NCBI GenBank assembly: GCA_905250025.1 | Contig: CAJNOJ010000320.1 | Coordinates: 37,657-101,656, forward strand | Direction: 5' to 3' | DNA: 64,000 bases | Origin: Adineta ricciae | Lineage: Eukaryota; Rotifera; Eurotatoria; Adinetida; Adinetidae | In this document: in pieces, positions 9,494-64,000 of the stretch | Numbering within the stretch: the first letter of the stretch is position 1 | How the letters are laid out: every line of letters starts with the position of its first letter | Position numbers and translations under genes: made by a program | Notes under the pieces: model-generated | What the model was told of the DNA's origin: nothing | The model's input: only the letters and a program-made list of their open reading frames with translations | Databases searched by the model: none

Positions 9494-12400
9494 TTAAACA
9501 AGTGAAAGAAAGTCAAGGTGAAGTTCATGAGGAATGTCAATTTGATCAAGTGAAACAGTCGATGGAACATACGGATAGACCAGTGGAAATGTGTAGCCTA
9601 AATCAAAATTCTCTTGTTGCTCATATTCAATTCGTGTTCGATCAGTTGTTGAACCNAAATAGATACCAAGAACAACTGCATCGGTAATCCGTTCCGTTTC
9701 CTGAGGATTACATTTTATCATTCCACTAAAGTGTCTGATGCTTTGACGACGTAGATCAACATTTCCTGGAACATTCGCTGGCCCTGTTGTGGTTGTTAAT
9801 GACATAGAATTGGAAATATCATTGTGACCATTGAGTTGACCCATTCCGTTCATTGATCCATTTTGAAGAACTTGCTCCCAAGAGACATTTCCCGCAGAAA
9901 AGCTCTTATTAACAAGTTTGATAACGCGTCGTAATTTTCGGATCTCGGCGTGATTCGTTTGAATTTGTTGATGAAGTTCCTAAACATTTGCATAGAAATC
10001 AGTTGTTGAGCAAATTAACTTACCAGATTTTCGTTAATAACATTGGCGATTTGTTGTTTCATTGCATCGTCCACCGTATTTTCGTCAATTGATTTACATA
10101 GCTCTAGATTTTCTGCTTCGACTTGTGCCAAACGTTCGTGTGTTCGTTCGTATTCTCGCTGATATGATGCTCGACATTGTTCCAGTTCAAGTTCCAACAT
10201 TCTGAATAAAATTCTCTTTTTCAAAGAAAAATGTCTTTTTAAGTCAATTTTACTTATTGATTTGTTTTTGACTTTGATATGCTTGTTCAATGGCGTCACT
10301 TGCAATCACATCATCGGATTCATTCTCATGTTGCATAACTCGTTCTTGTAATTTCGATTTCATTTCAATTTGCTCACGACGACGATGTTCTAATTCCGCA
10401 TTTAATGCATCGAATTGTGCTAAAAAGAAAACAATTAAGCAGATGATTTGAATAAAAAATGAAACTTACCAAGTAATTGTTCTTTCGCTGCTATTTCATC
10501 GCCCTTCAAAACTTCTTCTCTCAACGCTTTCAAATCAGTTCTTAATTTATCCATTTCTAATTCATCTAAATGCCACGATGAATTCTTTTTCATTGTGCTT
10601 AGTTTCGATGAATTTGTCACTCCTTTATCCAATTCTTCATTCATTGTTTTGTTTTCTTGTTCAAGTTGTCTTAAACGTCGTTGAAGGCGAAGGAGAAGTC
10701 CACCACCAGGAGCAGTACCGGCTTCGACAAGTTCATCGAGTGGTTCATTCGTATGCGTTGTTGTTAAATGACGTTGATGAGTATTGATCGTCGACGAAAG
10801 AAGAGGAGGAGGACGACGAGGAGTTAAACCATCACTCGTCAACGGTGCTTGATCCTAATACAAAAGTCAATACATTCATTCTCATCATCAATTAATCGAT
10901 TAACCCACATAACTTAAATTACGACATACATCGCAAAAAAACCACATGATCACTCGAATGTCGTTTTACATGAACAAAGAAAACATTTTTTTATTCCCTC
11001 TGGTTCTGATTGCCTGCTAGGAAATATTAATCTTAAATCCCGATGGTTGAAAGTTTCCGAAACGACTAATCTTCTTTTGTTGAAAATGAGAATATTTACC
11101 GGTAAATCATCAAGATCAAGTGTGTCCATAAATTTCGAATCCCAAGTCATATTCGAGTCCGATGGTGCTGATTTGACTTTGTGAAGATTTTCATTCTGTA
11201 ATTCACTTTGTAGATTGTCGCATTTTTGTTCCAATCGATGCATTTCAATCACTAAGCGTTGTCTTTGTTGTCGTTCAGCTGTTAATTCTTCTTCTAATTG
11301 TTTCATACGAATGGCGGATGAATCTTGTGTGGACAAATCTCCGCGTAATTGTTCTTCTAATTTTTTAATTTCGTTGTCTTTTTGTTCAACGTCATTTTCT
11401 AATTGAGCAATTAGATCGGTGTTTTTAGAAATGATTTCATCTTTTGATTGTTTGGTTTGAAGTAGATCTGCACGTATCGATGCATTTTCGGTTTTTAATC
11501 GTTCGTTTTCTAATCGAAGTCTAAGAAGAAACGAATTGTTTTAGGAGGTAAAAAGAAAATTTATCGTCTTACTGTTGAAGTTCTTCTTCAAGAATGGCTT
11601 GTTTCTTCAGATTTTGTTTCAATTCTTTATTATTGACTTTTAATTGGTCAAAATCTTTTTTGAAATTTTCTAATTCTTGTTCTTTATTAACCAACCGTTC
11701 ATTATCTCGTTTTTGTTCGTCAATTTTATGTTGAAGTGAAATAATTTTATTTTCTAAACCTTTATTCAATTGTCGTTGATGTTCGATCGAACGTTGTTCA
11801 ACTCGAAGTTTTTTGACTTCGAGACAAGCTTCACGTCGACGTTGATGAGATTGTAAAAGAACAATTCCGCGTTGAAATGTGATAAATCTTCTTCGAGCAA
11901 TCCACATACGTACAGATGATTGAAGAGCCAGAACACTTCGTTCCAACATTCGTTGCTGAAGATTTTTTCGAACTAAATAACCTCGACAATAAGATTGAAT
12001 GTCAATAAGAACTGTTCGGAGATTTTCAAAACGACGATGAACTAATTGTCGACGCCATAACGATTGAAATAATATTACAGCATGTGTACGACGAATATTT
12101 TCTGCATGTTTTTGTGCTAAATACCGTCTCGCTAAACATTGCAATGCCAGAGTCGTACGTCGGATTTTCAAGTAGCGTTTTCGTGCATAATAAGCTCTGT
12201 AAGTAGTTTGAATTTTGATGATACAAGCACGAAGTTTTTCGGAACGTAATTTTTCGAGATAAGCAACTTGTCCTGCACGGAAGAAGATCTTTGTATTTCC
12301 AAATTGATATTTATCCGGATCGGAAATTAAGTTTTTTAGAATATTTTCACATGTTCGACGATGATTCGTTCGATCGATCAACGCTGAACGTGTTAATAAC

Positions 12401-13856
12401 CGATAACGCACAAAAAAATCGTGATAACTCCAACGTGATGGATAACCAGCAGCGCTGATACGAACCGTTTCCAAAACACCACAAGCACGCAATTGTTGCA
12501 CTGCACGACGAGGTTCAAATCTGTAAAGAAAAGTTATTAAAAGAATTTCGAAATCCGATGAGCAAACTTGATCAGGTTTTGAAGGACAAACGACTTACGT
12601 GAATGAAGCTTTGGCGTCATTGGGTTTGATGCAACGAACGTAATGAGGTTCGGTCGAATTCAATGCTAACATTAAACTTGTTAAAGATTCACGAAACTAT
12701 TAGAAAAGAAAAAGATTTTGTTTAGTTGAATCTTTCCAAGAATAACAAAAGGATAAGTGTGCTTAGAACACCAAACAAAAGATATGCTTTTCAAGGAATG
12801 ACAAAGAGAGTAGAAATATCACAAAAACCAACCTGTGAACCAAGTGAATAGCGCTGCAAAGATTATTTCTATTGATAAAAATCTCGTTCCTACAAAAACC
12901 GTTATTTACCTGCGATCCAACGGTTTTCTTTCTTTGTGCTTGAACTTTGGAAGCTGCTTGTAATGTTCCGGTTTTCTGTACTTGATACGATTTCACTGAT
13001 GTCGAACCTTTTACTCCATCATCTTCTTCCAAGAATAATTGAACAACAAACTCCAACTAAAAACATCTTTCTTCGAATAAACACTTCTTTCCAAACGAGA
13101 AACTTACTTCACTTTCTTTCAACATTTTCAATTGATCTTCCAAAACTGTGTCTCGATTTTTCTCTAAAAATCCATCGATTGAATATTCCACTTTCTCGGC
13201 AAAATGATTGATGATAAATGTCGAATTTGCTGCTAGTTTTTTCGTTAAAAAATCCGGATGTTTGCCATGTTGACTCACTAATTTCCTATGCCAGTTTTCG
13301 TCTGAACCTTTGGGCATCTACGAAGAGAAAATCTTTTCTTTCTTTCAAACAAAAATTCTCAAACAAACTTTGCATTCTTCATCTAGCAAGTCTAAAATTC
13401 CTAGTTTATTTTCAATCAGATCAATACACGGTTGATTATCATAAAATTGAATAAATGACCAAGTAATTTCTTCTTTCATATATTCTTCTTGTTCAAGTTT
13501 AAAAACGTGCTAAAATCAGTAAGGAAATTCATGTTTTTCAACCGAAATAAGTTTTCTTACTTGACAAAACTGCTGTTGTAGTTTTTCATTCGCGTAATTT
13601 ATACAAAATTGTTCAAAGCTATTGATTTCAAATGTTTCGAAGCTAAACGACAGCAGAAACTTTTGAAGAGAAGCTCCAAACAAAGGCTAAACTTACCCGT
13701 AAATGTCTAAAACTCCAATAAAGGACTGTCGTTGTCCCACATATTCTAAAGATTTATTTATTTCATTCACAATCCATCCGAACAACTGCGAATAGATATG
13801 TTTCGCCAGCGCATCTCGAGCAAACAGTGCCTTTCAAAAAGAAATTCATGAAAATC
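9494..13856 (-). CDS. Class V myosin, partial copy A (late motor, neck, coiled coil, last tail exon)
   Basis: Read from right to left this multi-exon gene begins inside the motor ([44 protein letters not shown]). It continues through the converter ([20 protein letters not shown]) and six IQ motifs (around 11900-12250) that bind calmodulin-like light chains, then a long coiled coil ([15 protein letters not shown] is typical of myosin V). It reaches the start of the globular tail ([23 protein letters not shown]). After a donor at about 9665 comes N at 9656, then only the final tail exon ([20 protein letters not shown]...), which matches the myosin V C-terminus. The P-loop half of the motor and most of the dilute/cargo-binding domain are absent. 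Myosin V walks on actin carrying organelles. The losses coincide with N bases, so assembly gaps are as likely as true deletion. Confidence 0.85.
9656..9656. other. Single N: junction inside myosin copy A
   Basis: The base is undetermined. It sits a few bases into an intron of the myosin gene, and the sequence beyond it is the last exon of the same gene, so a large piece of the tail is missing across this point. Confidence 0.8.
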
Positions 13857-13857: not shown

Positions 13858-16800
13858 TTAATTCTACATACAATAAAACTCATTCTATAGCAATCAAAAC
13901 AAAGCAAAAAATAGATACCAAGAACAACTGCATCGGTAATCCGTTCCGTTTCCTGAGGATTACATTTTATCATTCCACTAAAGTGTCTGATGCTTTGACG
14001 ACGTAGATCAACATTTCCTGGAACATTCGTTGGCCCAGTTGTGGTTGTTAGTAACATAGAATTGGAAATATCATTGTGACCATTGAGTTGACCCATTCCG
14101 TTCATTGATCCATTTTGAAGAACTTGCTCCCAGGAGACATTTCCTGCAGAAAAGCTCTTATTGACAAGTTTGATAACGCGTCGTAATTTTCGGATCTCGG
14201 CGTGATTCGTTTGAATTTGTTGGTGAAGTTCCTAAACATTTGCATAGAAATCAGCTGTTGAGCAAAGTAACTTACCAGATTTTCGTTAATAACATTGGCG
14301 ATCTGTTGTTTCATCGCATCATCCACCGTATTTTCGTCAATTGATTTACATAACTCTAGATTTTCTGCTTCGACTTGTGCCAGACGTTCGTGTGTTCGTT
14401 CGTATTCTCGCTGATATGATGCTCGACATTGTTCAAGTTCAAGTTCCAACATTCTGAATAAAATTCTCTTTTCCAAAGAAAATTTTCTTTTTAAGTCAAT
14501 TTTACTTATTGATTTGTTTTTGACTTTGATACGCTTGTTCAATGGCGTCACTTGCAATCACATCGTCGGATTCATTCTCATGTTGCATAACTCGTTCTTG
14601 TAATTTCGATTTCATTTCAATTTGCTCACGACGACGATGTTCTAATTCCGCATTTAATGCATCGAATTGTGCTAAAAAGAAAGCAATTAAGCAGAGGATT
14701 TGAATAAAAAAATGAAATTTACCAAGTAATTGTTCTTTCGCTGCTATTTCATCGCCTTTCAAAACTTCTTCTCTCAACGCTTTCAAATCAGTTCTTAATT
14801 TATCCACTTCTAATTCATCTAAATGCCACGATGAATTCTTTTTCATTGTGCTTAGTTTCGATGAATTTGTCACTCCTTTATCCAATTCTTCATTCATCGT
14901 TTTGTTTTCTTGTTCAAGTTGTCTTAAACGCCGTTGAAGGCGAAGGAGAAGACCACCACCAGGAACAGTACCGGCTTCGACAAGTTCATCGAGTGGTTCA
15001 TTCGTATGTGTTGTTGTTAAATGACGTTGATGAGTATTGATCGTCGACGAAAGAAGAGGAGGAGGACGACGAGGAGTTAAACCATCAGTCGTCAACGGTG
15101 CTTGATCCTAATACAAAAGTCAATACATTCATTCTCATCATCAATTAATCGATTAACCCACATAACTTAAATTACGACATACATCACAAAAAAACCACAT
15201 GATCACTCGAATGTCGTTTTACATGAGCAAAGAAAGCATTTTTTTTATTCCCTCTGGTTCTGATTGCCTGCTAGGAAATATTAATCTTAAATCCCGATGG
15301 TTGAAAGTTTCCGAAACGACTAATCTTCTTTTGTTGAAAATGAGAATATTTACCGGTAAATCATCAAGATCAAGTGTGTCCATAAATTTCGAATCCCAAG
15401 TCATATTCGAGTCCGACGGTCCTGATTTGACTTTGTGAAGATTTTCATTCTGTAATTCACTTTGTAGATTATCGCACTTTTGTTCCAATCGATGCATTTC
15501 AATGACTAAGCGTTGTCTTTGTTGTCGTTCAGCTGTTAATTCTTCTTCTAATTGTTTCATACGAATGGCGGATGAATCTTGTGTGGACAAATCTCCGCGT
15601 AATTGTTCTTCTAATTTTTTTATTTCTTTTGTTTTTTGTTCAACGTCGTTTTCTAATTGGGCGATTAGATCGGTGTTTTTAGAAATGATTTCATCTTTTG
15701 ATTGTTTAGTTTGAAGTAGATCTGCACGTATCGACGCATTTTCGGTTTTTAATCGTTCGTTTTCTAATCGAAGTCTAAGAAGAAACGAATTGTTTTAGGA
15801 AGTAAAAAGAAAATCTCTCGTCCTACTGTTGAAGTTCTTCTTCAAGAATGGTTTGTTTCTTCAGATTTTGTTTCAATTCTTTATTATTGACTTTTAATTG
15901 GTCAAAATCTTTTTTAAAATTTTCTAATTCTTGTTCTTTATTAACCAGCCGTTCATTGTCTCGTTTTTGCTCGTCAATTTTATGTTGAAGTGAAATAATT
16001 TTATTTTCTAAACCTTTATTCAATTGTCGTTGATGTTCGATCGAACGTTGTTCGACTCGAAGTTTTTTTACTTCGAGACAAGCTTCACGTCGACGTTGAT
16101 GAGATTGTAAAAGAACAATACCGCGTTGAAATGTGATAAATCTTCTTCGAGCAATCCACATACGTACAGATGATTGAAGAGCCAGAACACTTCGTTCCAA
16201 CATTCGTTGCTGAAGATTTTTTCGAACTAAATAACCTCGACAATATGATTGAATGTCAATAAGAACTGTTCGGAGATTTTCAAAACGACGATGAGCTAAT
16301 TGTCGACGCCATAACGATTGAAATAATATTACAGCATGTGTACGACGAATATTTTCTGCATGTTTTTGAGCTAAATACCGTCTCGCTAAACATTGTAATG
16401 CCAGAGTCGTACGTCGGATTTTCAAGTAGCGTTTTCGTGCATAATAAGCTCGGTAAGTAGTTTGAATTTTGATGATACAAGCACGAAGTTTTTCGGAACG
16501 TAATTTTTCGAGATAAGCAACTTGTCCTGCACGAAAGAAAATCTTCGTATTTCCAAATTGATATTTATCCGGATCGGAAATTAAGTTTTTCAGAATATTT
16601 TCACATGTTCGACGATGATTCGTTCGATCGATCAACGCTGAACGTGTTAATAACCGATAACGCACAAAAAAATCGTGATAACTCCAACGTGATGGATAAC
16701 CGGCAGCGCTGATTCGAACCGTTTCCAAAACACCACAAGCACGCAATTGTTGCACTGCACGACGAGGTTCAAATCTGTAAGAAAAAATTATTAGAAGAAT

Positions 16801-36705: not shown

Positions 36706-38706
36706 TTATTCTGAATGATTTGTGTTTTGCCACCAATGCAATTTTGGAAGATCTTGTGGCTCACCATCGATCATTCGAATCATTATTGCACAACAGATGA
36801 TATTCTCCTGAATACATTCTTGTGAAGCTTGATTCAATGGTAGAATCCATTCGAGTTGATCATTCGAAAAGTTTTCATCGATTTGTTTCGTTTTTGCACT
36901 TGGTTGAAGTAAGATTTCCGATGTTGGTTTGTTGAAGACATCCGGATTCACTCGACATTGAAAAACTAATTGATAATATTGATTTGCCATGTTTCTCCAC
37001 ATATGAGTGTATTTCGGATGAGCACAATATTCGATACTTGGTGAAAAATGAATATTTTGTCGATTTCGTGAAATATTCGATCGTTGAGTTGACACACGCA
37101 TTGCGGTCGTTAAGATAAATGGAGCATAGAAACCTCGACAACCATGGTAAACAATCGGCCATTTCGTTTCGACCTGAGAATTGGAGTGAACTGATTGAAT
37201 AGAAAAACGTTTCCAACCTAAATGATCGAATAGAGTTGCGTTTTTCGAAGAAAAAGAAAGCGTGTAAACAACCTTCCGGACAAAGAGAATCGTTATCACT
37301 CAGAGCAATCAGGTCAAGCAAAATATTTTCAACAGATTTATTTATAAATGGTGCGTCCGATTTGTAATTGATGAGACGTTTTTCAATAGATAAACAATAT
37401 TGCCCAAAGCTAATGGACTGTACTTGACAATCCAATCTCTGGGTAGAGTTTTCAACAGCTTGAACAATCCTTAATGATTCTCTGGAATTGTTCAATTGTT
37501 GACTAATCATTTGATGATAAGTTGGATGAATAGCGATGTAAAGAATAGTACTTCCTTGTTCGACACGTTCGATTGTGAATGTTTCATCAGGTAAATTGAG
37601 GAATTGAGAAAGATTTAAACAAAATTGTTGTTGAATTGAATGTTTGTTTAGAGTCCATCTTGTGTAATTATCTTCGAGGCGAATAATCAATGAATTATCT
37701 AGAAGAATTATTGAAAATTATGAAAGGAAAATTTTTGAATTTTACTTTCTGCTTCATTGTTTCTGTCCATTAGAATTGGCAAAACGCGATTTTGATGAAA
37801 TATTTTTCTAAATTTTTTATTCAATTGAAATTCATTTGTTGTATTTACACATAATTGACCAAGAGCATTGATTAATTCAAAAATTCTTCTTTGTTGTTCA
37901 GCCAGTTGTTCTTCGAACTCTTCTTCTATTCGGCGGATTAAATATTCTTCTCGATTAAATCTCCTTACACATCGATTTTCCACGTACGACTGAACAAACT
38001 GCAAAGAAGTTGTTGAATCAGTCATTCGATAAAGTGAATCCAGAATTTGTTTGCTCAAGATCGAATCTTCATCCATTTGATGGATAAATTGACTAATAAG
38101 TTTGTAACGTGCGTTCCAAAGACTCACACATTCGTTGATTGTTTGCATAAGAAAAGTTTGAGCAGAGAAAACGCTTAAATCTCCTAATTCATTAAATTTT
38201 CCGACCATTCGATTGAGCTCATTAGCATATCCGTAATGTTGTCTCAGCCATTGAACAATTCGATTGCGATGGTCGTGATAGTTGTTGGAATCGATGATGT
38301 TAAATAAATGAGTTAATTCACTGTCGATTTGTGCGATTTGTTGACGAATTTTTGTGATTGCAGCACGTATTTCTTCGCTATCTTCTCGATTTTCGTTTCG
38401 TGTCGATGATACTTGAACGATAGTTTCGACGTCATTACGAATAAGTTGAAGCGCATGAAAGAATTCTTCTTCGATTATCTGACGTGTTTTGTTGATTTTC
38501 GAGTTATTTTCGTCAAGATCTTGAGAAAATTGTTTGGCCAACAACGTTTCTTGTTGATGTTTAAGATCATTGTCATGCTGCGAAGTTTCCGCATCGTATG
38601 TTCGTTTCCTTTCAAGATTTCGTTCGATTTGAGTAAGTTTTTTCAGACTATCCGATAATTGATCATCTGCAAAGCGTTTTAGACAAAAATCTAAATTTCC
38701 ATCCAT
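36706..38706 (-). CDS. Coiled-coil protein with C-terminal ART/PARP-fold-like domain
   Basis: Three exons (37746-38706, 37273-37698, 36706-37217) with clean junctions give 632 residues. Residues 1-320 are charged and helical (ERNLERKRTYDAETSQHDND; LIRRIEEEFEEQLAEQQRR), predicting coiled coil. The C-terminal part contains WPIVYHGCRGFYAPFI, then NIHFSPSIEYCAHPKYT, then YYQLVFQCRVNPDVF. This order (His-Gly, then a FSPS..Y block, then a beta-strand with a carboxyl-side partner) recalls the H-Y-E layout of ADP-ribosyltransferase folds and of WPV.YHGT domains fused to ubiquitin-ligase-like proteins. Catalysis is uncertain, because the third key residue cannot be fixed by eye. It may modify or sense proteins in the cytosol. 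Confidence 0.7.
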
Positions 38707-39109
38707 GAATAACAGAACAATTCTCCGCGAAAGACGGTTATTTGCACAACGACAGAGTTTGAAGAAGTGTCTGTTAAATGAAGTAATTCACTCGTATCTG
38801 TCGGGGGTGTTTTTGTTTTATCTTTATATGAAAGAATGTAAAAAATGTTTGGATTTAAGTAAATAAATATGCTTTATAGGTAACGCAAAAAAATTAGGAC
38901 ACTAATTTATTAAGTCAAAATGATATGCGCCGTTTTTGTTCGTTCGATGGATTAATTTGAAGAAAACTTCGTTTGTTTCAAAAGAAGATGTTGAAAAACA
39001 ATGTAGTCTCGTTTGCTGAGTTATAAAACATCATAAACCACGTCAAAGATTGTTAAGATATAAATCATATGTAACGATAACGATGATGGTTGTTTTGAAT
39101 GTTTGATAC

Positions 39110-40057
39110 TCACGATGCAATTTGAAGTGTATTTCTTTTAGTTGGAAAAAGAAATTGTGGGAAAATTCTTCGAAAATTTCTTTCCCAGCAGATCATTATC
39201 ATAAATTCTTGTCGAAATTCATCGAATGTAATGAGAAAAAGTGGAAACGACAAAATATGATAAGTAAAAAGCATTGCGTCCAATGCGAGAAGGACATTTT
39301 CATCGATTGAATTAACGAAAAATGCAAAACCGATCGTTGCCGGAATTGTCATTATCATAAAAAGAAACGTCGTTATTATTGATGTGATCGACACAGTTCG
39401 ATGATGAATACGTGAATTCTGAAGTGTAGTTTGTTGTCGTATACGAATCAATCGATAAATCACTCCACTATTCAAAGTAATCATTAAAACAAACGGAACG
39501 CAATTATACATAACTAAATTCACCCAATCCCATATCGGAGTGATTTGATATGATCTAGCGTTGACATTAATCAATCCATCTACTTCGTAATAACATGCCA
39601 ATACTGGAAGATGAATATTAAGTAAAACAAAAAAACTGATAACACACGAAATCATAATCAGAGCATTTCTCGATCGGCTGAACCAAGTTCGATGTAGACG
39701 AGTTAATGATACATATCGATCAAGGGATATTAAAACTCTTAACCAAGCTGATGTTTGAGGAGTGAAGTAATTAAGAAACCAAGCGAATTTACATGAAGCA
39801 GTTGTGACTGTGTAAAGAGTGAAACCGTAGATTGGTTTGGTATAATGATCGAAATTCCATCCGAATAACATAAAAACGTCAATGATAACAAATGTTCGTA
39901 TGTAGATCAAGGCCGGTCGTTCTTTTAGATTAAGAAATTTTGGACGACAAAGAATAAAAAATGTTAAAACATTTAAAAGAGTACCGATGAACATTAAACT
40001 TAGAGAATAGTACGCAATTAGAAGTGAAGATATATTTGCTTTCGTGCTATTTGTCAT
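39110..40057 (-). CDS. Rhodopsin-like (class A) orphan G-protein-coupled receptor
   Basis: Intronless ORF of 315 residues from the ATG at 40057 (MTNSTKANISS, with N-glycosylation sites NST and NIS). Seven hydrophobic segments are visible, beginning with LIAYYSLSLMFIGTLLNVLTFFILC. TM3 ends in SLDRYVSL, the DRY motif used for G-protein coupling. The loop before TM6 is basic (RLIRIRQQTTLQNSRIHHR). TM7 (SFPLFLITFDEFRQEF) lacks a canonical NPxxY. The short C-tail is basic. This style matches the large family of small peptide-type 7TM receptors expanded in lophotrochozoans. The ligand is unknown. An in-frame TTG lies upstream, but the ATG before the glycosylation sites is the better start. Confidence 0.85.
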   Translation of the reverse strand: MTNSTKANISSLLIAYYSLSLMFIGTLLNVLTFFILCRPKFLNLKERPALIYIRTFVIIDVFMLFGWNFDHYTKPIYGFTLYTVTTASCKFAWFLNYFTPQTSAWLRVLISLDRYVSLTRLHRTWFSRSRNALIMISCVISFFVLLNIHLPVLACYYEVDGLINVNARSYQITPIWDWVNLVMYNCVPFVLMITLNSGVIYRLIRIRQQTTLQNSRIHHRTVSITSIITTFLFMIMTIPATIGFAFFVNSIDENVLLALDAMLFTYHILSFPLFLITFDEFRQEFMIMICWERNFRRIFPQFLFPTKRNTLQIAS

Positions 40058-40717
40058 GATGACTTGAAGCAACTAGCAAATGTTGAAAGATTTCTAAAAA
40101 AAACCATGTGGGCGAGAAACAACCTGATTAATTATTACGAGAAGGAAAGTCGTGCTGTAATCAGATCGGGAATCTACCGAATTAATAGATTAATCAGTGC
40201 TCTTTTCCAAGAAGGGAATGCTTTGTCGTTGAAATGTGTATTCTTTCTTCCTATTGAATTACAATTTACTTCTCTTATAGGTAAATATATCGTATGAACG
40301 TAATCCAAGGACATAGGGACAAGAAGAATTTTACTAGTAAATTATCAACAGATATTCCAATAGTACTCCATGTACGTAACAAAAATCTGCTGTTTTTTCT
40401 CATAATGCTTATGAAAAACATACAACGATTCATTGAACTATGATCGATTTTGTTCTCATTCAATGTAATCTTACTATTTAAAGTTATGACATGTGGTTCA
40501 TCGTTTGGTTATCTTTTTCAAGGATGACGTGTTACCATGATGAAACAACACGTATGACTAGTTCCACGACTTTTAAACCCTTTCCAATACCTTTGCGGAC
40601 AGAAATTCTTTCCGTTCGTACTCTTATCATTATTGACATCCGTATAAATATGGAGAACACAGCGGTAGAAGCAATTTTCGTTCTTTTTTTCTTTGCTTTC
40701 TATTGTCAATACACACC
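40058..40717. promoter_or_regulatory. Divergent region between the GPCR and P450 genes
   Basis: The genes are transcribed apart from here. No specific motif was found; the ORFs within it look random. Confidence 0.35.
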
Positions 40718-42426
40718 ATGTGGTCTATTCTATTGACGTCTGCCATATTATTGTACTTCATATACCGTTTACTGAAATTTTGGATTTTCGATCCCAAACG
40801 AATCCATGATGATTTAGCATCCCAGGGTATTCCAGGTCAATATATTCCAATTTTTGGAGAAATTCTTAGTATTCGTCGTGCTGCGGAAAGAGGCGACCCA
40901 CTTTCTCATTTACGATTATTACGAGAAAAATACGGTCCATATTATCGGTCTTCATTCGGTCCAATTGCTCGTTTATCAACGAGTGATCCCGGATTAATCC
41001 AAGGTATATTGAAAAGCAATGCGCGTTGTTATCACAAATCAAACCTGATGCAAATGATCTTGGGCACATTGCTAGGCCACGATAGTCTTTTAATGGCAGA
41101 AGATAATGTTCACAGTCAACATCGCCGTTTGATCGCGCCTGTTTTTCAACATCAAAATATCAATTCAATGATTTCGTTAATGATCGAAAAAACATCGAAC
41201 TATATCGAAAAATGGCAGAATAATCTACGAGAAACTGCTCCGAAAGATTTTGTAGTGGACATGCACGCTGAAATGGCACGCTTAACATTGGATATTGTCA
41301 CGGGATGTGTATTCGGTGATGGATTAATGGGAAATAATCACGCACGAAAGATCATCTATGACAATGTCACAACAACACTAGCAGATGTTGAAAAACGAAT
41401 ACATAACATGATTGCGATCATACCGATTGTTAATCGCTTACCTTTACCAAGTAAACAGCGGATTGATAAGTCGAAACGCGATGTTCGAATTGTTATTCAA
41501 CAAATTATTGATGACAGAAAACAAGGTTTAACCAAATCTTCTTGTAAAGGTTGAAGTTCCACATTTTCTTATCGAAATATGCGAATTATTGTTTCATTTA
41601 GGACCTGATCTTCTTGATTTGATCTTAGCAGCACGTGATGACGATAAAATAAGTAAATTTACCGACAAAGAAATCTACGAAGAAACTCTCACCTTCAGTA
41701 AATCATTCACATTTGAAGAAAACTTTCGATCAAAATATCTTTAGTCATTGCTGGCCATGAGACAACATCGAATCTGATGGTTTGGACATTTTACAACTTA
41801 GCGAACAATCCCGATGTGTATCAACGATTAGAAAGTGAAATCGATTCAGTATTGGATGAAAATGAAGAGATCTCGATTTCTACACTTTCACTGTTGACGT
41901 ACACAGAAGCTGTTTTGAAAGAATCTCTTCGATTACATCAACCTGTGCCGACACTTGTTCGAAAAGTAGTAGAAGATAACACATTGACTGCCAGTGATGG
42001 AAAGCAAATTCATATCAAGAAGGGTACCGATATTCTTATCGATATATACGGTCTTCATCAGTAAGAATAGAAAGGCGGAGATTTCATTTTCATATCTGTC
42101 GCTTTCTGTAAAAAGCTCGGAATTGTATTGGTCGGAGCCAATGAAATTCGATCCATCAAGATTCACTGGACGTCATGCGGATACACTTCTACCGTTTTCT
42201 GCTGGGCCTCGTTCATGTATTGGCCAAAATTTCGCCATGTTAGAAGCAAAAGTAATGTTGGCGATGCTCGTAAAACATTTTCATTTCGAACTCGTACCGG
42301 GACAAAAGCACGTTCCGGAAATTGTAATTACAATGAGGTAAATTCATCATTTGACTCATTAGTAAATGATTCATTGATTTTTATAGGCCGAAATATGGTA
42401 TGTGGACAAAATTATCATTACGATGA
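40718..42426 (+). CDS. Microsomal cytochrome P450 (CYP)
   Basis: Five exons are joined by short introns: 40718 to about 41550, about 41602-41697, about 41744-42059, about 42115-42338 and about 42388-42426. The start ATG opens a hydrophobic anchor (MWSILLTSAILLYFIYRLLKF) that places it in the ER membrane. P450 landmarks are all present: the helix C WxxxR counterpart (HSQHRRLIAPVF), I-helix oxygen-binding AGHETTS, K-helix ExxR (KESLRLHQPVP), the PERF-region equivalent FDPSRF, and the haem loop FSAGPRSCIG with its Cys ligand. It catalyses haem-dependent mono-oxygenation with NADPH-P450 reductase. The style is close to CYP4/CYP46-type enzymes, but clan and substrate cannot be set from sequence alone. 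Confidence 0.9.
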
Positions 42427-56178: not shown

Positions 56179-57348
56179 TCACAATTGAACCATATTTTTG
56201 AAGAAATAATCTTTATTAAAAGATGAAATAGCTTCTTCTGTTTTCTGCACGTAATATTGAATATGTTCAGTTACTTCTTCTTCATTTTTGAACCAAGTGC
56301 AACTGTAGAAAGTGACGTAAACGGCTGAAAACATAATTTCTAAATACCAGTTCAACTCTTTTAAATGAACCTTATCTTCCATCAATGTCGTATAACTCTT
56401 TTCTTGTTCAAGTAAATCTTGCAATCGTTTTTCTCGTCCATCATTATTATCACCATCATCATCGTCAAACCAAGCTGAAGTAAATTGAAGATCATTATTA
56501 CTAAAAGTCATTGCTGCTTTTTCCCAATCAAGAATTCCTAACACGTGTCCATCGTGTTCATTCACTAAGATATTAGACGAATTTAAATCAGTATGAGTAA
56601 AACGAAATGGAATATTTTCATTGAATACATTCGGATCTCTTTGAATACATTCAACTACTGTTTCCAAAGGTGACAATAAATGTTTGGTCAATTCAAATAA
56701 GAATTCATCGGTTTGAATTCGTTTTATTGCCCAATGTAAATTCCCGATGATATATTCCTTAACTGTGGAAAATGGACCGAGCATTGGACTATCTTCAACG
56801 ATTCCACCAAGTGACATTTCTTCATCTGAAAACGAACCAATTTGATTTTCACCGGAAAGTTTAATTCGACGTAACTGTTTGACATAGTCGATCATTTCTA
56901 AAGTAATTTTGAAAAGAGTCTCCTCGGACATGTTCTTCATGGAGACTTCTAAAGTATTTCCTGGAAGCTTTTCCATCAGAATATACTCAGCAGAGAGAAT
57001 ACTCGTTGTTGAATCATCGGAATAATCGAGTATTTTAGGCACGGGAATAGTTGTATGTTGAAGAACATATTTCATAGTGAAAACTTCGTTTCTTGTTCGA
57101 AATCTTCTCCAATAACGATGTGGATTGGAAACTTTCAAGATCAACTCTTGGGATTTGAATGATTTTGATTGTGTTTCGAGATGAAAAATGAAATTAATTC
57201 GTCCAGATGTTTTCAAATGTTCAAACAAAACACAATGAAGATCAAGTCTTTGCAAAAGTTTATCCAAATTTTCTTTCGTTACCTTCGATAAGATCAAGTT
57301 CACCTCTTCACATTGTTCGCCGTAAGTTGGATGCATAAGAAATTCCAT
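56179..57348 (-). CDS. APH-family small-molecule kinase (aminoglycoside-phosphotransferase fold)
   Basis: Intronless ORF of 389 residues. The N-lobe has LILKVSNPHRYWRRFRTRNE (ATP-anchoring Lys, and Glu of helix C) and a hinge YILMEKLPGNTLE. The catalytic loop is FTHTDLNSSNILV (Brenner motif HxDxxxxN) and the metal-binding segment is VLGILDWEKA (DxD/DFG equivalent). All key residues are intact, so ATP-dependent phosphotransfer to a small molecule is expected; the substrate cannot be told. Such APH proteins are abundant in fungi and bacteria. The lack of introns, against intron-rich neighbours, makes horizontal acquisition possible. A drug-resistance role should not be assumed; many eukaryotic members have metabolic substrates. 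Confidence 0.85.
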   Translation of the reverse strand: MEFLMHPTYGEQCEEVNLILSKVTKENLDKLLQRLDLHCVLFEHLKTSGRINFIFHLETQSKSFKSQELILKVSNPHRYWRRFRTRNEVFTMKYVLQHTTIPVPKILDYSDDSTTSILSAEYILMEKLPGNTLEVSMKNMSEETLFKITLEMIDYVKQLRRIKLSGENQIGSFSDEEMSLGGIVEDSPMLGPFSTVKEYIIGNLHWAIKRIQTDEFLFELTKHLLSPLETVVECIQRDPNVFNENIPFRFTHTDLNSSNILVNEHDGHVLGILDWEKAAMTFSNNDLQFTSAWFDDDDGDNNDGREKRLQDLLEQEKSYTTLMEDKVHLKELNWYLEIMFSAVYVTFYSCTWFKNEEEVTEHIQYYVQKTEEAISSFNKDYFFKNMVQL

Positions 57349-57630
57349 TGTAGAATGGATCTAACAAACACTGTCATGATGATTTTATTCATGGTGATTG
57401 CGCAATGCATGAGTCAATATAAATTTTGACTAAAAAACGGTTTTCATATGTGCTTTTATTTTGAGATTCTTCATCACATTGCGTTGACGTTCTTTGTTCG
57501 ATTCTCTTGCTATTGATAGGACTATTTCTCGACCTATGTGTGTTTTCTTTCGTTCTTTGTTTCCACTCTTTCACTCATTCGTCCAGTGTGCACGTGAGTA
57601 GTGATACAATCAATCATCGGAGTATTTTAG
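57349..57630. promoter_or_regulatory. Divergent region between the kinase and nuclease-helicase genes
   Basis: The genes point away from each other. The right end reads gagtattttag, directly abutting the ATG at 57631, which looks like a splice acceptor and suits spliced-leader addition. Confidence 0.4.
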
Positions 57631-60600
57631 ATGAATTTGAATTGTGCTCCGGACGTTGAAAGTTTATGTTTGACATTTGATAAACATGTTGATATATCAT
57701 CGAAGACCGAAGATTCAGAGTAAAGCAGACGATTGATGAAATTTTCTAGTCAACCGATAATTTTTAGTCTCGTTCGCAGGAATTTATCCACCCAACATCG
57801 ACCCCTAACTATCTCAACACTTGCCCATTATTTTGGCCTGCAATGCGATGAATATCTTCGTTTGACATTAAATCCGTCGTCCGAGTCGACGAAATCGGAA
57901 ACATTAACGAGTTTTTTGACAAAACAACGCGGAATCTCTTTCGAGGAAAAGCTCAAAGCTTACTATTCAGCATCGATTTTATCAAACGTAACAACTTCGC
58001 AGGACTTTTTATCTTATCTTCGTTCAGCTCTATTAAATCCCGTCAAAGACCTTCGAATTGGATATAATGTTAAATTTCCATGGACTTATGATCAGAGTCT
58101 GCAAAGTAATTACAAACCTGATTTTTTGCTAATGCGTCATTCATGGAAAGATGGTCATCGAATTGAAATTACCATCGCCGACGCAAAGTCGTCAGCGCGC
58201 ATGCGAGTTGAACATTGTGTTCAAGTTGCACTTTATGGAATTGATTTACGAGTATGGATCGAACGGAATCAACTCGATCAACGGGTGTATATCAATAGTT
58301 TCGGGGAAATTTGGTTACCAAATGAGAATTCCACAATACCGTATGAGAAGAAAACCTTTCCAATGATGAAACTACAAGACAAACTTCGATACTTTCTTCG
58401 ACATGATCTCCAAGAAGTCCTTTCAGGTAAATTTTTCCTCATAAAATCTTGCCTTTCTTTTGTTATTGGGAATTCTAGGATCCAAATGGATTATGTTACC
58501 ACGTTGTTCACTTTGTCCGTATGTATCTCGCTGTCGCCAACGTGCGCTTCATGACAAACCGGAATCGTTAAATAATTTATCATACTTAACTCGAACGGAC
58601 CATTCGTTGATTCATTCATTTTTCCGATCGACATCTGCTTCCTCCATCGACTTAAACCTCATTCTTGATGAATTGAATACCAATGAGATTTATTCGAGCG
58701 AAAAAGCAAGACTTCAGCAGATTCTGGCGATCGATCCGAAAGAGAAAAAAAGTGCACTGATCGAAGCACTTCAAACTCGTGAACCACAGCTAAAAAGTCG
58801 AACTTCATTCTTAATTCCAAAAATCAATCAAGATTTGATTCTACTTTTTCTCTTTCTAATACCCAATCCATCTCAATTACATTCGGTTGCTCTTTTCGCT
58901 TATAATATCTATGATATGTTCAATCAAACATGGTTTTCTTCTCAGCCAATCGTTCAAACGTATCCATCACCTTCGCAAGTAGTATGTCTCATTGCTGAAG
59001 CCTTTGATCAATTACGAAGAACATCGTCACGTCCATGCCAAATTGTTCTTTTTGACGAACAAGAAAGAACTGCATTATTCGAACAATTAACTCTTGCATC
59101 CGATTGCGATTTAATTGGTGACTGCCTTGTTCTATTGAGCTCATCCGAAAATGCAATTTTACTTGATTATCCACCCGATGTTATTCAACAAGATCGATTA
59201 TTTCGCTCACATCCACTATCCAACGTAAAGAAAGATGATATTGAACAGGAATTGAATGATCGTTACGGTTTAATCGTTGATAAAACTAAAACTACCAGCA
59301 AACTTGAATTAGCACAACAATTAAGACAATTAAATAATCAAGAACAAGAAGACGCAAGACGAAATCTCGTTGGTTTGCCATGTCTTATTTCATTACATAC
59401 AGGTAAATAAAAGTTGAATTGAAAAAGTGTTATTACTTGAATTTTCTCATAGCCATTCGCCAATCTTTCGTCGTTCCCACGCCTGGATATTTCGATCTCG
59501 AAGATTTGAAATCTTCTTTTCAAATCTCTTTACCGTCATCGAAACCAACGGCAATCTTCGAAGCGATAACCAACGAAAGTGCTGTTGATGATCTTGTAAA
59601 ACAATATTTTGACGTTCTCACTAGGCTCTATTCAATCATTCAAACTCGTCTGTCCGAGTCCAATCGTTTACAATTAGAAGCAATTCCACTACCAATCATA
59701 AACTCAATCCGAAGTTCGCATTCGCATATTCGTCGTCTAATATTCCTTCGTCAATATGAAATGTTATATTCGCTTCGTTCAATTCAACAAGCCCGTTTTG
59801 ATATGAATGAACCGCCGATTCTCATTCGTATCCTTAAGAAAATCCCAGTTGACAGATATAATAATTCATGGGAGTGTCAAATCGAACGTGGTCAAGAAAT
59901 TATTTCGAAGAATTTTCTGGAAGATGTCACGAATAATAGTGAATTTCGAACATATTCATACTTAATCTCAAAAGATAACTATTCAATACAAACATTTCCC
60001 GACGCTGTTTATATGGACTCAGCTATCGAAGGTCTTCGTTCTCGTACAAAATTGAATCAATACGGTTTAGCTCACGTTGAACTAAATGGAGAAAACGGAA
60101 CGATACTTCTTCGAATGAAGCTCGGTGGTCTTTCGTTGGGAATCAACCAAGAATATTATTTAAGTGAGCGATATGTCGATTTTACTACTAAAAAAGCAAT
60201 TCAAGCATTGGAACAAGTAACACCGTTGACTATTCAGATTTTTGATGATCCAAGACGATTAGAAAGGCCAGAAGCAATTCAAAAATCGAGTCGCGACTTT
60301 CAGCAAGAAATTACTAATATATTTTCGAAACGAGAACCCTCGATTAAACCAGATGGATTACATATGCTCAATAAAGCACAACAGGTCGCCTGCGAAAAAG
60401 TGAAAAATGAACGTGTCACCCTGATTTGGGGACCACCAGGTAACAGAGTATTAAAAAGCACAATTTGCAACACAGCAATTCTATTCGTTTAGGTACTGGT
60501 AAAACTTATTGGTCGAGTGTTACTGTATTTCAGATGTTGATGTTTTCGAAATCTCCGTTGCATATATTAATCACTGCGTGTACTCACACAGCAATTGATA

Positions 60601-61766
60601 ATCTTCTCAATTCGATCAAATATGTGAAACATCTCTTTTCTTCCTCATCGCAATTTCCTCGATGGTGCGAATTAGCGAAGGAATTACAAGTTATGAAAAT
60701 TGATTCGAAGAACTACCGTGATCTTTTGAATGTAAACAAAAAGAGTTCTTGGATTATTGGATCGACTGGTTGGACACTACAGAAACTTGATCGTTCGATT
60801 ATATTCGATATTATTTTCGTTGATGAAGCAACACAACTGTTAACAAGTGATGCTGTTTTAGCATTAAACCGTTTAGCTGATCACAGAGAATCACGATTGA
60901 TCGTAGCTGGTGATCCTTTACAATTATCTCCTGTGAAACGTTGTACTTATCCAACGTTGCCTCATCCGACTCCGGATTTGTTTTCGTCTCTCTTCCATTG
61001 TTTATTACGCGATGAAAACAATAGTCCAATTTGCTTGCAAACAGAAAAGCCTTTCGAGCAAATCTCACGTTGTCCATACTTATCGATTTTCGATGAAAAT
61101 CACCGCATGAATGAACAATTGTCAGATTTTACACGTCTTCTGTATGGTGAAAATTATCGTCAAGGCCGTTCGAAGCCATTGCTCTCAGTTTGTCCGATTG
61201 ATGAAACGCACGAATATCTTTTAGGATCACTTCTTGAGCCGTACAGTTCGCTTTATACCATTCTTGTCGATTCCTTTCCGTCATCTTCTTTGTCAACTCG
61301 TCTTGACGATATTTTTCTCGAATCGAACCTTGTTTGTTCGCTTGTCGAAGAACTTGTTTTACGTATATCACCCTCATCCATCTTTATCATCACTCCGCAT
61401 CGAATGCAACGTTCTGTTATTCGACAAAAACTTCCTCAACATCGATTTTCTACTGTTTCCATTACTTGTGATACGGTAGAACGAATGCAAGGCAAAGAAG
61501 CACAGTGTGTTATATTATGTATGCTCTATCGTCAAAGTGAAATACTCGAAAATGAATTAGATTTTCTGTATAATCGGCAACGTATTAACGTTAGTATAAC
61601 ACGTGCTCAACAACTATGTATTTTATTAACATCACAACTAATGTTCAATCAACCACCATTAGACTTATTTATCAATGAAAATACGAGAAATGCCTATACA
61701 CTTCTGAGTAATTATATAAATAAGTCCATAATACGATATTTGGACAACGAAGGAAATGTCAAATAA
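57631..61766 (+). CDS. Fe-S Cas4/Dna2-like nuclease fused to an SF1 helicase
   Basis: Five exons (57631-57719, 57750-58426, 58479-59402, 59453-60439, 60493-61766) give 1316 residues with phase-consistent joins. An alternative start is ATG 57736 if the 30-nt first intron is not real. The N-terminal third is a RecB/Cas4-type PD-(D/E)XK nuclease: Asp154 (YKPDF), D174-A-K176 (TIADAKSS) and the Q188..Y192 motif (QVALY). Cysteines at 62 and 265/268/274 (CSLCPYVSRC) match the Dna2/Cas4/AddB iron-sulphur layout. The C-terminal half is an SF1B helicase: GPPGTGKT, FVDEATQ, GDPLQLSP, FDENHRMN, ITPHRMQ, ERMQGKEAQCVI, RINVSITRAQ. It resembles bacterial TM0106-type nuclease-helicases more than eukaryotic DNA2. 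Expected role is ATP-driven resection or unwinding of DNA or RNA ends. Confidence 0.88.
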
Positions 61767-62090: not shown

Positions 62091-64000
62091 TCAGTTACCA
62101 TTTGAACATACATTACAATTACATGATTGAATACGGCGAATTTCCACAGTTCTTGGTTCAGTTACTGTTCGTGAGCCATCAATATAACAATCGAAAACGA
62201 TCGGTTGCAAATACGTTTCACCAACTGAGCAGCAGGTACATTGATCGTCATTAGATTCACATTGTCCACTGCAACGTTCTCGAGGAACATTTTCGCGTGA
62301 AACACATTGATCGTTATTGATTCGTAACGGTGCACTATCATATTGACGTACCGAACATTTGTCATGGCATACATTACAGCTACATGATTGAATACGTCGG
62401 ATTTGTATGGTCTTCTCTACTGTTTTTGTTGTTGAACCATCGACGAAACAATCAAAAAGAACTGACTGTACGTAGGTTGTTCCAACTCCGCAACATTTAC
62501 ATTGATCACTACTATCTGATTCACAATAGCCTCCACATCGCTCTCGTGGAAAGCTACTTCGGGACACACATTGACCGTTATTAACTTTGATCGGTGCATT
62601 ATCAAATTGTTGCATGGTACACTGAGTAGTATTCGTTATTGGTGTTGTCGATAGCACTCGGGTCGTTGTTTGAATGGTCGTTGTTGTTACCAGACATTGA
62701 TTATCAGACAATTTCAATCCATCGGCTGTGCAATACACAATGTAGCAACGATCTCGAGTGCGGATTATTATGCCTTGCTCAACAGTATCATTGATGTAAA
62801 CGATATTTCGTGCTTGAGTCGTGGCATTGACGTATGTATCGATATAGCCGATTTCCTCTGCAAGAATATATTTTCAGTCTTTTCTTTTAAAATCGTCTTC
62901 GAACTTACTGTCCTCAGTCGGCTCCTTTTTGAATACACGGGTATAGAATGCTTCGTCAAGCGTGCATGTGCAACGACGTTCTGTGCAAGATTGATGCTCC
63001 ACAAGTTGTTCTTTGCTGCAGCCCTTCGATACTGTTGTATTCCGCGAACGCGTCTTATACCCGATACCGCAAGTACGACTACAAGGTGTCCACTGCGACC
63101 AATCCGTCAGAACACATGGAATACCCGTTGTCGTTGTTTCTGTACCTAGAACAAACAAAACCATTCTGAAACGACACTTCCTTCGTCTTGCATACCGAAA
63201 GCAGAACAGGCATAAACCTCCACACGTATATTTTTCGCGTCACCATTTGGCGCAATACGTATCTTCGTAGCGTTCAACGTATCAGGCAGGACAATCTCAA
63301 TTCCATTCAAAACAGATCCCTAACAACAATCATGAAACTTCACATGTTAATCCTCTCTCAAGTCGTACATACATTATTAAATGCCGCCCACACTGGGAAG
63401 ACATCGGAAGATGTTTGATAATATAATCGCCACTCTTTCAAATTATCACCATTCAAACGAATACGTCCGATCTTAATACGCAACAAGAAGACAGCTACAC
63501 AAAATACACAAAAGCCCACCACATACCTCAACTGGATGACGAAAATCGATATTCAGCGACGAATATGCTGATGAAGGTGTCCAACCAGTTCCATTCGATC
63601 GAATCACATACCCAACAAACTTCGTTTCTCCTTTTGTAATTTCCGTTATAGAATCAGCACCAACCAAACCAAATTCTTCATCTAGGGTGTTTTCATTCTG
63701 ACAGCGGCCAACCAACACACCAATAGTTGTCGTTCCATTTACCACATGGTCTGTAGAACCAGAGCTGCCCATAGCTGTTGTGCTACCCTGACTACCAGCT
63801 GGTCCTGTTAATCCTTGACTACCGCCTGGTGCAGTTGATCCTTGACTACCCCCTGGTCCTGTGGTTCCTTCACTATCGATTGGTCCAGTTGATCCTTGAC
63901 TACCCGTTGGTCCTGTTGAGCCTTGACCGCCAGCTGGTCCTGTGGTTCCTTCACTACCGATTGGTCCAGTTGATCCTTGACTACCCGCGGGTCGTGTTGG
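62091..64000 (-). CDS. Secreted mosaic protein: collagen-like, discoidin, TSP1, two cystine-knot domains (5' end outside window)
   Basis: Reading leftward from the window edge, the first block is a Gly-X-X stretch (GSQGSTGPIGSEGTTGPAGG, about 63773-64000). An F5/8-type discoidin-like domain follows in several exons (FGLVGADSITEITKGETKFV; IGRIRLNGDN..EWRLYY; LPDTLNATKIRIAPNGD). Next is a thrombospondin type 1 repeat (DWSQWTPCSRTCGIGYKTRS, with WxxW and CSRTCG) and a short VWF-like stretch. Two tandem CTCK-like cystine-knot domains end the protein (NGQCVSRSSFPRERCGGYC; NDQCVSRENVPRERCSGQC), each closing with SC.CNVC. All Cys point to an extracellular matrix or mucus glycoprotein resembling SCO-spondin/mucin-type mosaics. 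The signal peptide must lie beyond 64000. The CTCK tails suggest disulphide-linked dimers. Confidence 0.8.
63773..64000 (-). repeat. Tandem Gly-X-X (collagen-like) coding repeat
   Basis: Repeated units of about 27 and 72 nt (ggtcctgttgatccttgac variants) encode GSQGSTGPIGSEGTTGP-type triplets. The array runs off the window's right edge, so its length is unknown. Confidence 0.8.

Follow-up and report, generated by a model that had tools for sequence, protein, structure and literature searches.

A 64,000-nucleotide stretch of the genome of the bdelloid rotifer Adineta ricciae (contig CAJNOJ010000320.1; hereafter the window) contains an intact, intron-bearing gene for a nuclease-helicase of a kind that was met here, the rotifer apart, in bacteria and archaea only, no eukaryotic collection having been compared. 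Its product is probably a single-chain iron-sulphur nuclease and superfamily 1B (SF1B; UPF1/DNA2-like) helicase that either is a member of a prokaryotic family standing beside the TM0106 family and separate from DNA2, or is a eukaryotic offshoot with that family as its nearest kin. The spliced gene is intact and present in a single copy, and the encoded protein keeps nuclease and helicase residues, four cysteines and a likeness to the family.

The gene occupies positions 57631-61766 of the forward strand and encodes one spliced protein. Exon joins were read from the sequence using predicted splice sites, and no stop codon is left after joining the exons. Three introns of 50-53 bases each are obligatory, and a fourth, of 48 bases, is needed if the upstream ATG is the start. 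Translation from the ATG at 57736 (model B) yields 1291 amino acids, and from the ATG at 57631 (model A) 1310. A preliminary description, made from the DNA sequence alone, had correctly placed nuclease and helicase in one protein, but the length of 1316 residues that it gave was not upheld. Residue numbers below are those of model B unless exon numbering is stated. In the 130-Mb assembly the nuclease exon matched only itself. The helicase exon matched itself and, weakly, two other loci at 33% identity; these are UPF1-like genes that form a similar pair on two contigs. Paired similar copies are the expectation for a degenerate tetraploid genome.

Prokaryotic relatives were found in two ways. 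A search of plasmids led to a 1326-residue protein of Chlorohelix (locus L008, 2496-6476) that matches both halves of the rotifer protein (helicase, 101 bits; N-terminus, 24% identity, E 9e-5, in a four-sequence comparison), and also to split relatives on plasmids of Caulobacter, Skermanella, Azospirillum and Methylobacterium. Further relatives were taken from the best 80 of 315 loci of one genome scan. Twenty-seven long open reading frames (ORFs) were aligned and 23 were kept as the family, namely the Chlorohelix protein and 22 from the genome scan; those left out of the 23-row profile had the nuclease in another frame (L039), a weak nuclease (L045 and L052, 36 and 46 bits) or none (L086). 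Some members on haloarchaeal plasmids carry the NCBI label 'bifunctional RecB family nuclease/DEAD/DEAH box helicase'. Among viral contigs, 63 pattern matches included no relative. A phage search with the bacterial member L030 as query matched one of 50,697 records, the faecal phage contig MT835580.1, which at 38658-41938 codes for a protein related to the bacterial family (28% identity, with 56% of the query covered).

When scanned alone against Pfam, the rotifer protein matched ATPase/helicase families only (AAA_12, 1.3e-21; AAA_11, 1.2e-15); PF13482 (RNase_H_2), PF08696 (Dna2) and PF01930 (Cas4) gave no match at E up to 1. No GRF zinc finger was among its Pfam matches, no ZGRF1 sequence having been compared. 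The NCBIfam scan gave no match above cut-off, the match to PLuB (NF040671) falling below it. The profile of the 23 relatives, made without the rotifer protein, recognised the rotifer nuclease with 66.5 bits (E 4.5e-18), compared with 18.6 and 24.1 bits for two TM0106 nucleases and 8.4 bits for the best of 400 shuffled sequences. The corresponding helicase profile scored 197 bits (E 5.9e-58).

The nuclease residues G66, E70, D129, K151 and Y167 are identical in all 23 relatives. D149 is kept in 21 of them and replaced by Glu in two, and Q163 in 20, with Glu in the other three. Cysteines C37, C240, C243 and C249, which form the iron-sulphur layout, are Cys in 23 of 23 full-length relatives; from this layout an iron-sulphur cluster is inferred to be present. 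In the helicase, the GK, DE, GD..Q and QG motifs and R370 (exon numbering) are identical in all 20 rows compared. Motifs and family hidden Markov models (HMMs) thus bear out the PD-(D/E)XK nuclease with four cysteines and the complete SF1B helicase of the preliminary description, and the four cysteines are conserved in the relatives, as that description required. The profiles A2 and A3 gave no significant match to solved structures.

Phylogenetic analysis placed the rotifer protein with the same family. In a helicase tree of 94 rows it fell in a 34-row clade composed of the family, split relatives and rows cut by contig ends (support 99/96), and in a 37-row tree of nuclease plus helicase it lay within a 32-row clade (98/96). 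When mouse DNA2 and human UPF1 were included (51 rows), the rotifer protein grouped with the family (96/90) and DNA2 stood beside UPF1.

Several observations weigh against this placement. A very long branch (between 2.0 and 2.6 changes per column; 2.63 in the 37-row tree) leads to the rotifer protein, the sister of which was not resolved; because of the branch length, the exact position of the protein is unsure. When 94 rows were ordered by their score on the family helicase profile, the rotifer protein came only 79th, after many helicases from outside the family, so the score on this profile is less telling. The nuclease has E39 where all 23 relatives have Arg, and the middle region was matched neither by the family middle profile nor by hhalign (probability 0.6%). 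Finally, joining the rotifer protein to two TM0106 rows was not rejected, either for the helicase only (p=0.30) or with the nuclease added (p=0.106). The last result would suit the reading that this is a divergent TM0106 protein in the strict sense (TIGR03491), a family in which the domain order is identical. The relatives are weakly similar to TIGR03491: four of six scanned scored 18.9 to 40.1 bits, with none listed for the other two and a cut-off of 97.45 bits, and both Dpd-type nuclease proteins scored 38.2 and 46.8. The rotifer protein, however, has no match to TIGR03491 at E up to 10. An HMM of the TM0106 pair scored its nuclease at -0.2 bits, as opposed to 9.4-20.0 bits for two-sequence HMMs of the family (12 random draws, 11 distinct pairs), and the three trees put it with the other family, though just two TM0106 rows were used. 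Since the match is missing and the relatives remain under the cut-off, the neighbouring family is the better home, and we consider membership in TM0106 proper unlikely. The resemblance to TM0106 proposed in the preliminary description stands, with membership itself improbable.

A further question is whether the gene could be the strongly diverged DNA2 ortholog of the rotifer. Mouse DNA2 is the best match of the helicase exon alone among solved structures (E 1.5e-9), and PF08696 and PF21123 found no other DNA2 in the genome, in a search that is blind across introns and in which PF21123 gave a signal in no control. Yet the approximately unbiased (AU) test rejected the grouping of the rotifer helicase with mouse DNA2 (p=0.00017, one DNA2 row), and for the roughly 560 residues of the central region no counterpart is known in the layout of DNA2 (available portions of PMC7430649). 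Together with the missing PF08696 match, the AU test agrees with the preliminary description that the protein is not a standard DNA2, and we regard orthology as extremely improbable. The very long branch could also mark a decaying gene that no longer encodes an enzyme. The single copy, in a genome where the UPF1-like gene has a similar pair, and the apparent loss of acidic residues from the middle domain would fit decay. However, the frame is fully open across the exons, and invariant residues of the nuclease motifs, the cysteines and the helicase motifs are kept; as drift would not preserve these, we think decay very unlikely. The placement in or nearest the prokaryotic family beside TM0106 is the one we prefer.

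The stretch that follows the nuclease had been described as a long linker. It sits where the relatives have an RNase H-like domain, and the linker reading was abandoned. In the relatives, the interval between nuclease and helicase opens with a domain that hhalign matched (85%, E 5.9e-6) to the RNase H-like domain of one TM0106 protein. Domains of this TM0106 type are ranked among presumed 3'-5' exonucleases in the available portions of PMC3985635. When the rotifer protein was forced into alignment with the whole-protein profile, 'PCQIVLFDEQERTALFEQL' fell, at high posterior, within the second of the RNase H-like blocks. At the first, F356, I358 and N360 stand opposite D, E and D of L030, with a posterior of only 0.3-0.6; the last Asp of this set is invariant in 22 of 22 relatives. 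If the alignment of the first block is right, the diverged RNase H-like domain of the rotifer is probably catalytically dead.

The N-terminus of the model B protein is unusual in composition. Its first 36 residues are free of Asp and Glu and include four that are Lys or Arg, and similar composition was found in 4 of 1215 overlapping inner windows. Among 41 ATG-initiated ORFs of at least 100 amino acids in the window, only that of the nuclease-helicase gene itself begins this way (0 of 40 others). Residues 1 to about 21 precede the start of similarity to bacterial proteins. RRNL/STQ looks, by its motif, like a presequence cleavage site. The N-terminus thus resembles a mitochondrial presequence, and more tentatively the protein may work in mitochondria. 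With the model A start, an acidic stretch takes the place of the first 11 residues of model B. The protein might therefore exist in two forms sorted to different places, the one made from the alternative first exon being possibly non-mitochondrial.

The source for a possible mechanism is Bad, a DNA2-like helicase-nuclease of Geobacillus that moves 5' to 3' and cuts, according to the available portions of PMC7430649. By analogy with DNA2 and Bad, the rotifer enzyme most likely loads on, tracks along and cuts single-strand tails. It would load at junctions of single- and double-stranded DNA and move in the 5' to 3' direction along the single-stranded tail, driven by ATP, and the nuclease in front would cut the tracked strand. 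The iron-sulphur cluster would hold the nuclease together, and the RNase H-like middle domain of the relatives would have become a non-catalytic spacer. With less confidence, the protein might enter mitochondria and trim flaps or degrade broken mitochondrial DNA.

The genes surrounding the bacterial relatives were inspected for links to defence. In Marinicaulis (L023) and Hydrocarboniphaga (L050) the nuclease-helicase open frame overlaps a downstream DNA methyltransferase frame, and at L100 (Rhizobium) and L101 (Bradyrhizobium) the annotated gene and a DNA methyltransferase gene run towards each other, their ends overlapping by 4 bases. We regard the abutting genes as a candidate restriction-like pair. 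A related methyltransferase gene lies about 3 kb from L056, and a Hachiman HamB-like helicase is encoded upstream in L023. Eight upstream and two downstream neighbours at other loci included no obvious defence gene (one UvrD-like, four without a match), NurA precedes L021, and no operon conserved across the family was found among the loci examined. With methyltransferases at few loci and other neighbours that are not obvious defence genes, it is in a single branch only that a restriction-like role seems plausible. Two-gene units on alphaproteobacterial plasmids (L004:3686-12279, L005:3659-12312) encode a four-cysteine nuclease and a protein of about 2100 residues, in which an SF1B helicase is joined to a DpdJ-like superfamily 2 (SF2) helicase. 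The rotifer protein was considered as part of a Dpd system and this was rejected: it ends after the SF1 helicase, without the SF2 part of DpdJ, and the stretch listed as DpdJ is the SF1 part. Cas4 was likewise dismissed, PF01930 having no match in the rotifer protein or genome; weak likeness to Cas4 was seen only in the distant relative L046 (PADLOC, E 6e-4).

These neighbourhoods bear on the view that the rotifer protein is a domesticated defence enzyme acting on mobile DNA in the nucleus or cytosol. The methyltransferase genes abutting the four bacterial genes, the added HamB-like helicase at one of them and the split relative joined to a protein that PADLOC names DpdJ argue for it. The scanned neighbours of the other relatives, mostly non-defence or without a family match, argue against it, as do the lack of a recognised partner gene beside the rotifer gene and an N-terminus whose presequence-like character points to another compartment. 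We find this view doubtful. The defence link made in the preliminary description is thus suggested for some bacterial relatives and extends to the rotifer by analogy only.

Drying and radiation break the genomes of bdelloid rotifers, which survive this damage. In such animals, break processing or the clearance of mitochondrial DNA would have a direct candidate in a bacterial-type DNA2-like nuclease-helicase. With the rotifer protein, a prokaryotic family would gain an animal member; no curated model of this family was found in the scanned libraries, and the literature searched yielded no published function for it. No description of the rotifer gene was found in the available portions of publications on COG2251 helicases and on restriction-modification, horizontal gene transfer and nucleases of bdelloids, and the literature search found no publication on TM0106 as a nuclease and helicase. 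Bacterial DNA enzymes adopted by bdelloids include LigE (available portions of PMC10665377) and N4CMT, which is reported from bdelloid rotifers and missing in Didymodactylos (available portions of PMC8885841). The A. ricciae assembly contains two N6_N4_Mtase matches: L102 (contig C2) combines an SPPY motif with what by eye is a chromodomain, the make-up of bdelloid N4CMT, and L103 (contig C5) has one in-frame TGA within the match. The N4CMT-like enzyme by itself points to a bdelloid host, probably one other than Didymodactylos. Some proteobacterial relatives of the nuclease-helicase are encoded beside amino-methyltransferases. It is conceivable, although a long shot, that bdelloids took N4CMT, which marks mobile DNA, and the nuclease-helicase from prokaryotes as restriction-like halves, and that the latter was re-used in mitochondria, perhaps also in the nucleus via the second splice form, where after drying it would destroy or trim DNA that is broken or foreign.

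The coordinates of the features are collected in Table 1. The head-to-head neighbour of the nuclease-helicase gene (56179-57348, reverse strand) is a single-ORF gene for an APH-family phosphotransferase (PF01636, 1.3e-15), whose other copies in the genome are distant (at most 36% identity). The gap between the two genes is a possible shared promoter. Elsewhere in the window, two near-identical myosin-like ORFs of 310 amino acids (11569-12501 and 15823-16755) lie in a 2.87-kb stretch that is tandemly repeated 4.25 kb away with 96.8% identity, representing either a recent duplication or an assembly artefact. The end of the window (62091-64000, reverse strand) shows, by eye, cysteine-rich repeats, a thrombospondin-like stretch and collagen-like GxT repeats; for the protein piece at 62094-62738, a threshold of E up to 1e-10 gave a single genomic copy.

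Table 1. Features of the nuclease-helicase gene and its surroundings (window positions, except in the last line, where bacterial loci are given)
Feature	Position	Strand	Basis
Intergenic gap of 282 bases between head-to-head APH-like (-) and nuclease-helicase (+) genes	57349..57630		ORF positions
Optional first exon (model A), acidic N-terminus	57631..57719	+	Predicted; requires intron 57720-57767, GTAAAG...TTTTTAG
Coding exon 2 from model B ATG: presequence-like N-terminus and most of nuclease	57736..58426	+	Sequence reading, composition
Presequence-like extension before bacteria-alignable part, residues 1-21	57736..57798	+	Composition of first 36 residues
Four-cysteine PD-(D/E)XK nuclease domain, residues 19-255, contains intron	57790..58552	+	HMM built without the rotifer protein
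First cluster cysteine, C37	57844..57846	+	Cys in 23/23 relatives
Nuclease motif III, D149-A-K151	58180..58188	+	Alignment with relatives
Intron	58427..58478	+	Sequence reading
Exon 3: C240-x2-C243-x5-C249 cluster (58505-58534) and degenerate RNase H-like region	58479..59402	+	Sequence reading, alignment
Putative degenerate RNase H-like blocks, residues ~341-450	58808..59137	+	Posterior high in block 2, 0.3-0.6 in block 1; no match to middle-domain profile alone
Intron	59403..59452	+	Sequence reading
Exon 4: remaining middle region and helicase start	59453..60439	+	Sequence reading
SF1B helicase core, residues 842-1280, contains intron	60361..61730	+	Family HMM; Pfam AAA_11, AAA_12; trees
Intron inside Walker A	60440..60492	+	Sequence reading
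Exon 5: helicase motifs beyond first half of Walker A, stop codon	60493..61766	+	Sequence reading
DNA methyltransferase genes abutting bacterial nuclease-helicase genes	L023:7428-9527, L050:4607-6667, L100:10191-11300, L101:10194-11306		

Among known systems, the prokaryotic family (NCBI 'AAA domain-containing protein' or 'bifunctional RecB...', for example the Chlorohelix protein and Salinirubellus L099:3914-8545) shares with the rotifer protein the order nuclease, middle region, SF1B helicase in one chain of about 1.3-1.5 thousand residues, the same catalytic motifs and, in 20 of 23 relatives, the spacing C...C-x2-C-x5-C. The rotifer version differs in its introns and N-terminal extension, in having E39 where Arg is conserved and in a middle domain that escapes the profiles, and the best identity is about 25%. 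The TM0106 family (TIGR03491, COG2251) follows the same plan of PD-(D/E)XK nuclease, RNase H-like middle (PF13482) and SF1B helicase, whereas the rotifer protein matches neither model and its nuclease is unlike the TM0106 pair in profile tests. At the Dpd-type plasmid loci of Caulobacter (L004) and Skermanella (L005), a nuclease and RNase H-like protein is encoded directly upstream of an SF1B helicase of the same kind; two genes are used there, and the fusion to a DpdJ-like SF2 helicase is missing from the rotifer protein. DNA2 resembles the rotifer protein in carrying an iron-sulphur PD-(D/E)XK nuclease ahead of an SF1B helicase, but it is not known to have such a middle region and the tree grouping of the two is rejected. 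Bad also has an iron-sulphur nuclease, and its central domain is of unknown fold (available portions of PMC7430649). Its nuclease D150 and Walker K815 resemble D149 and K871 of the rotifer protein in position, a likeness of catalytic positions only, which we regard as a lead to possible kinship.

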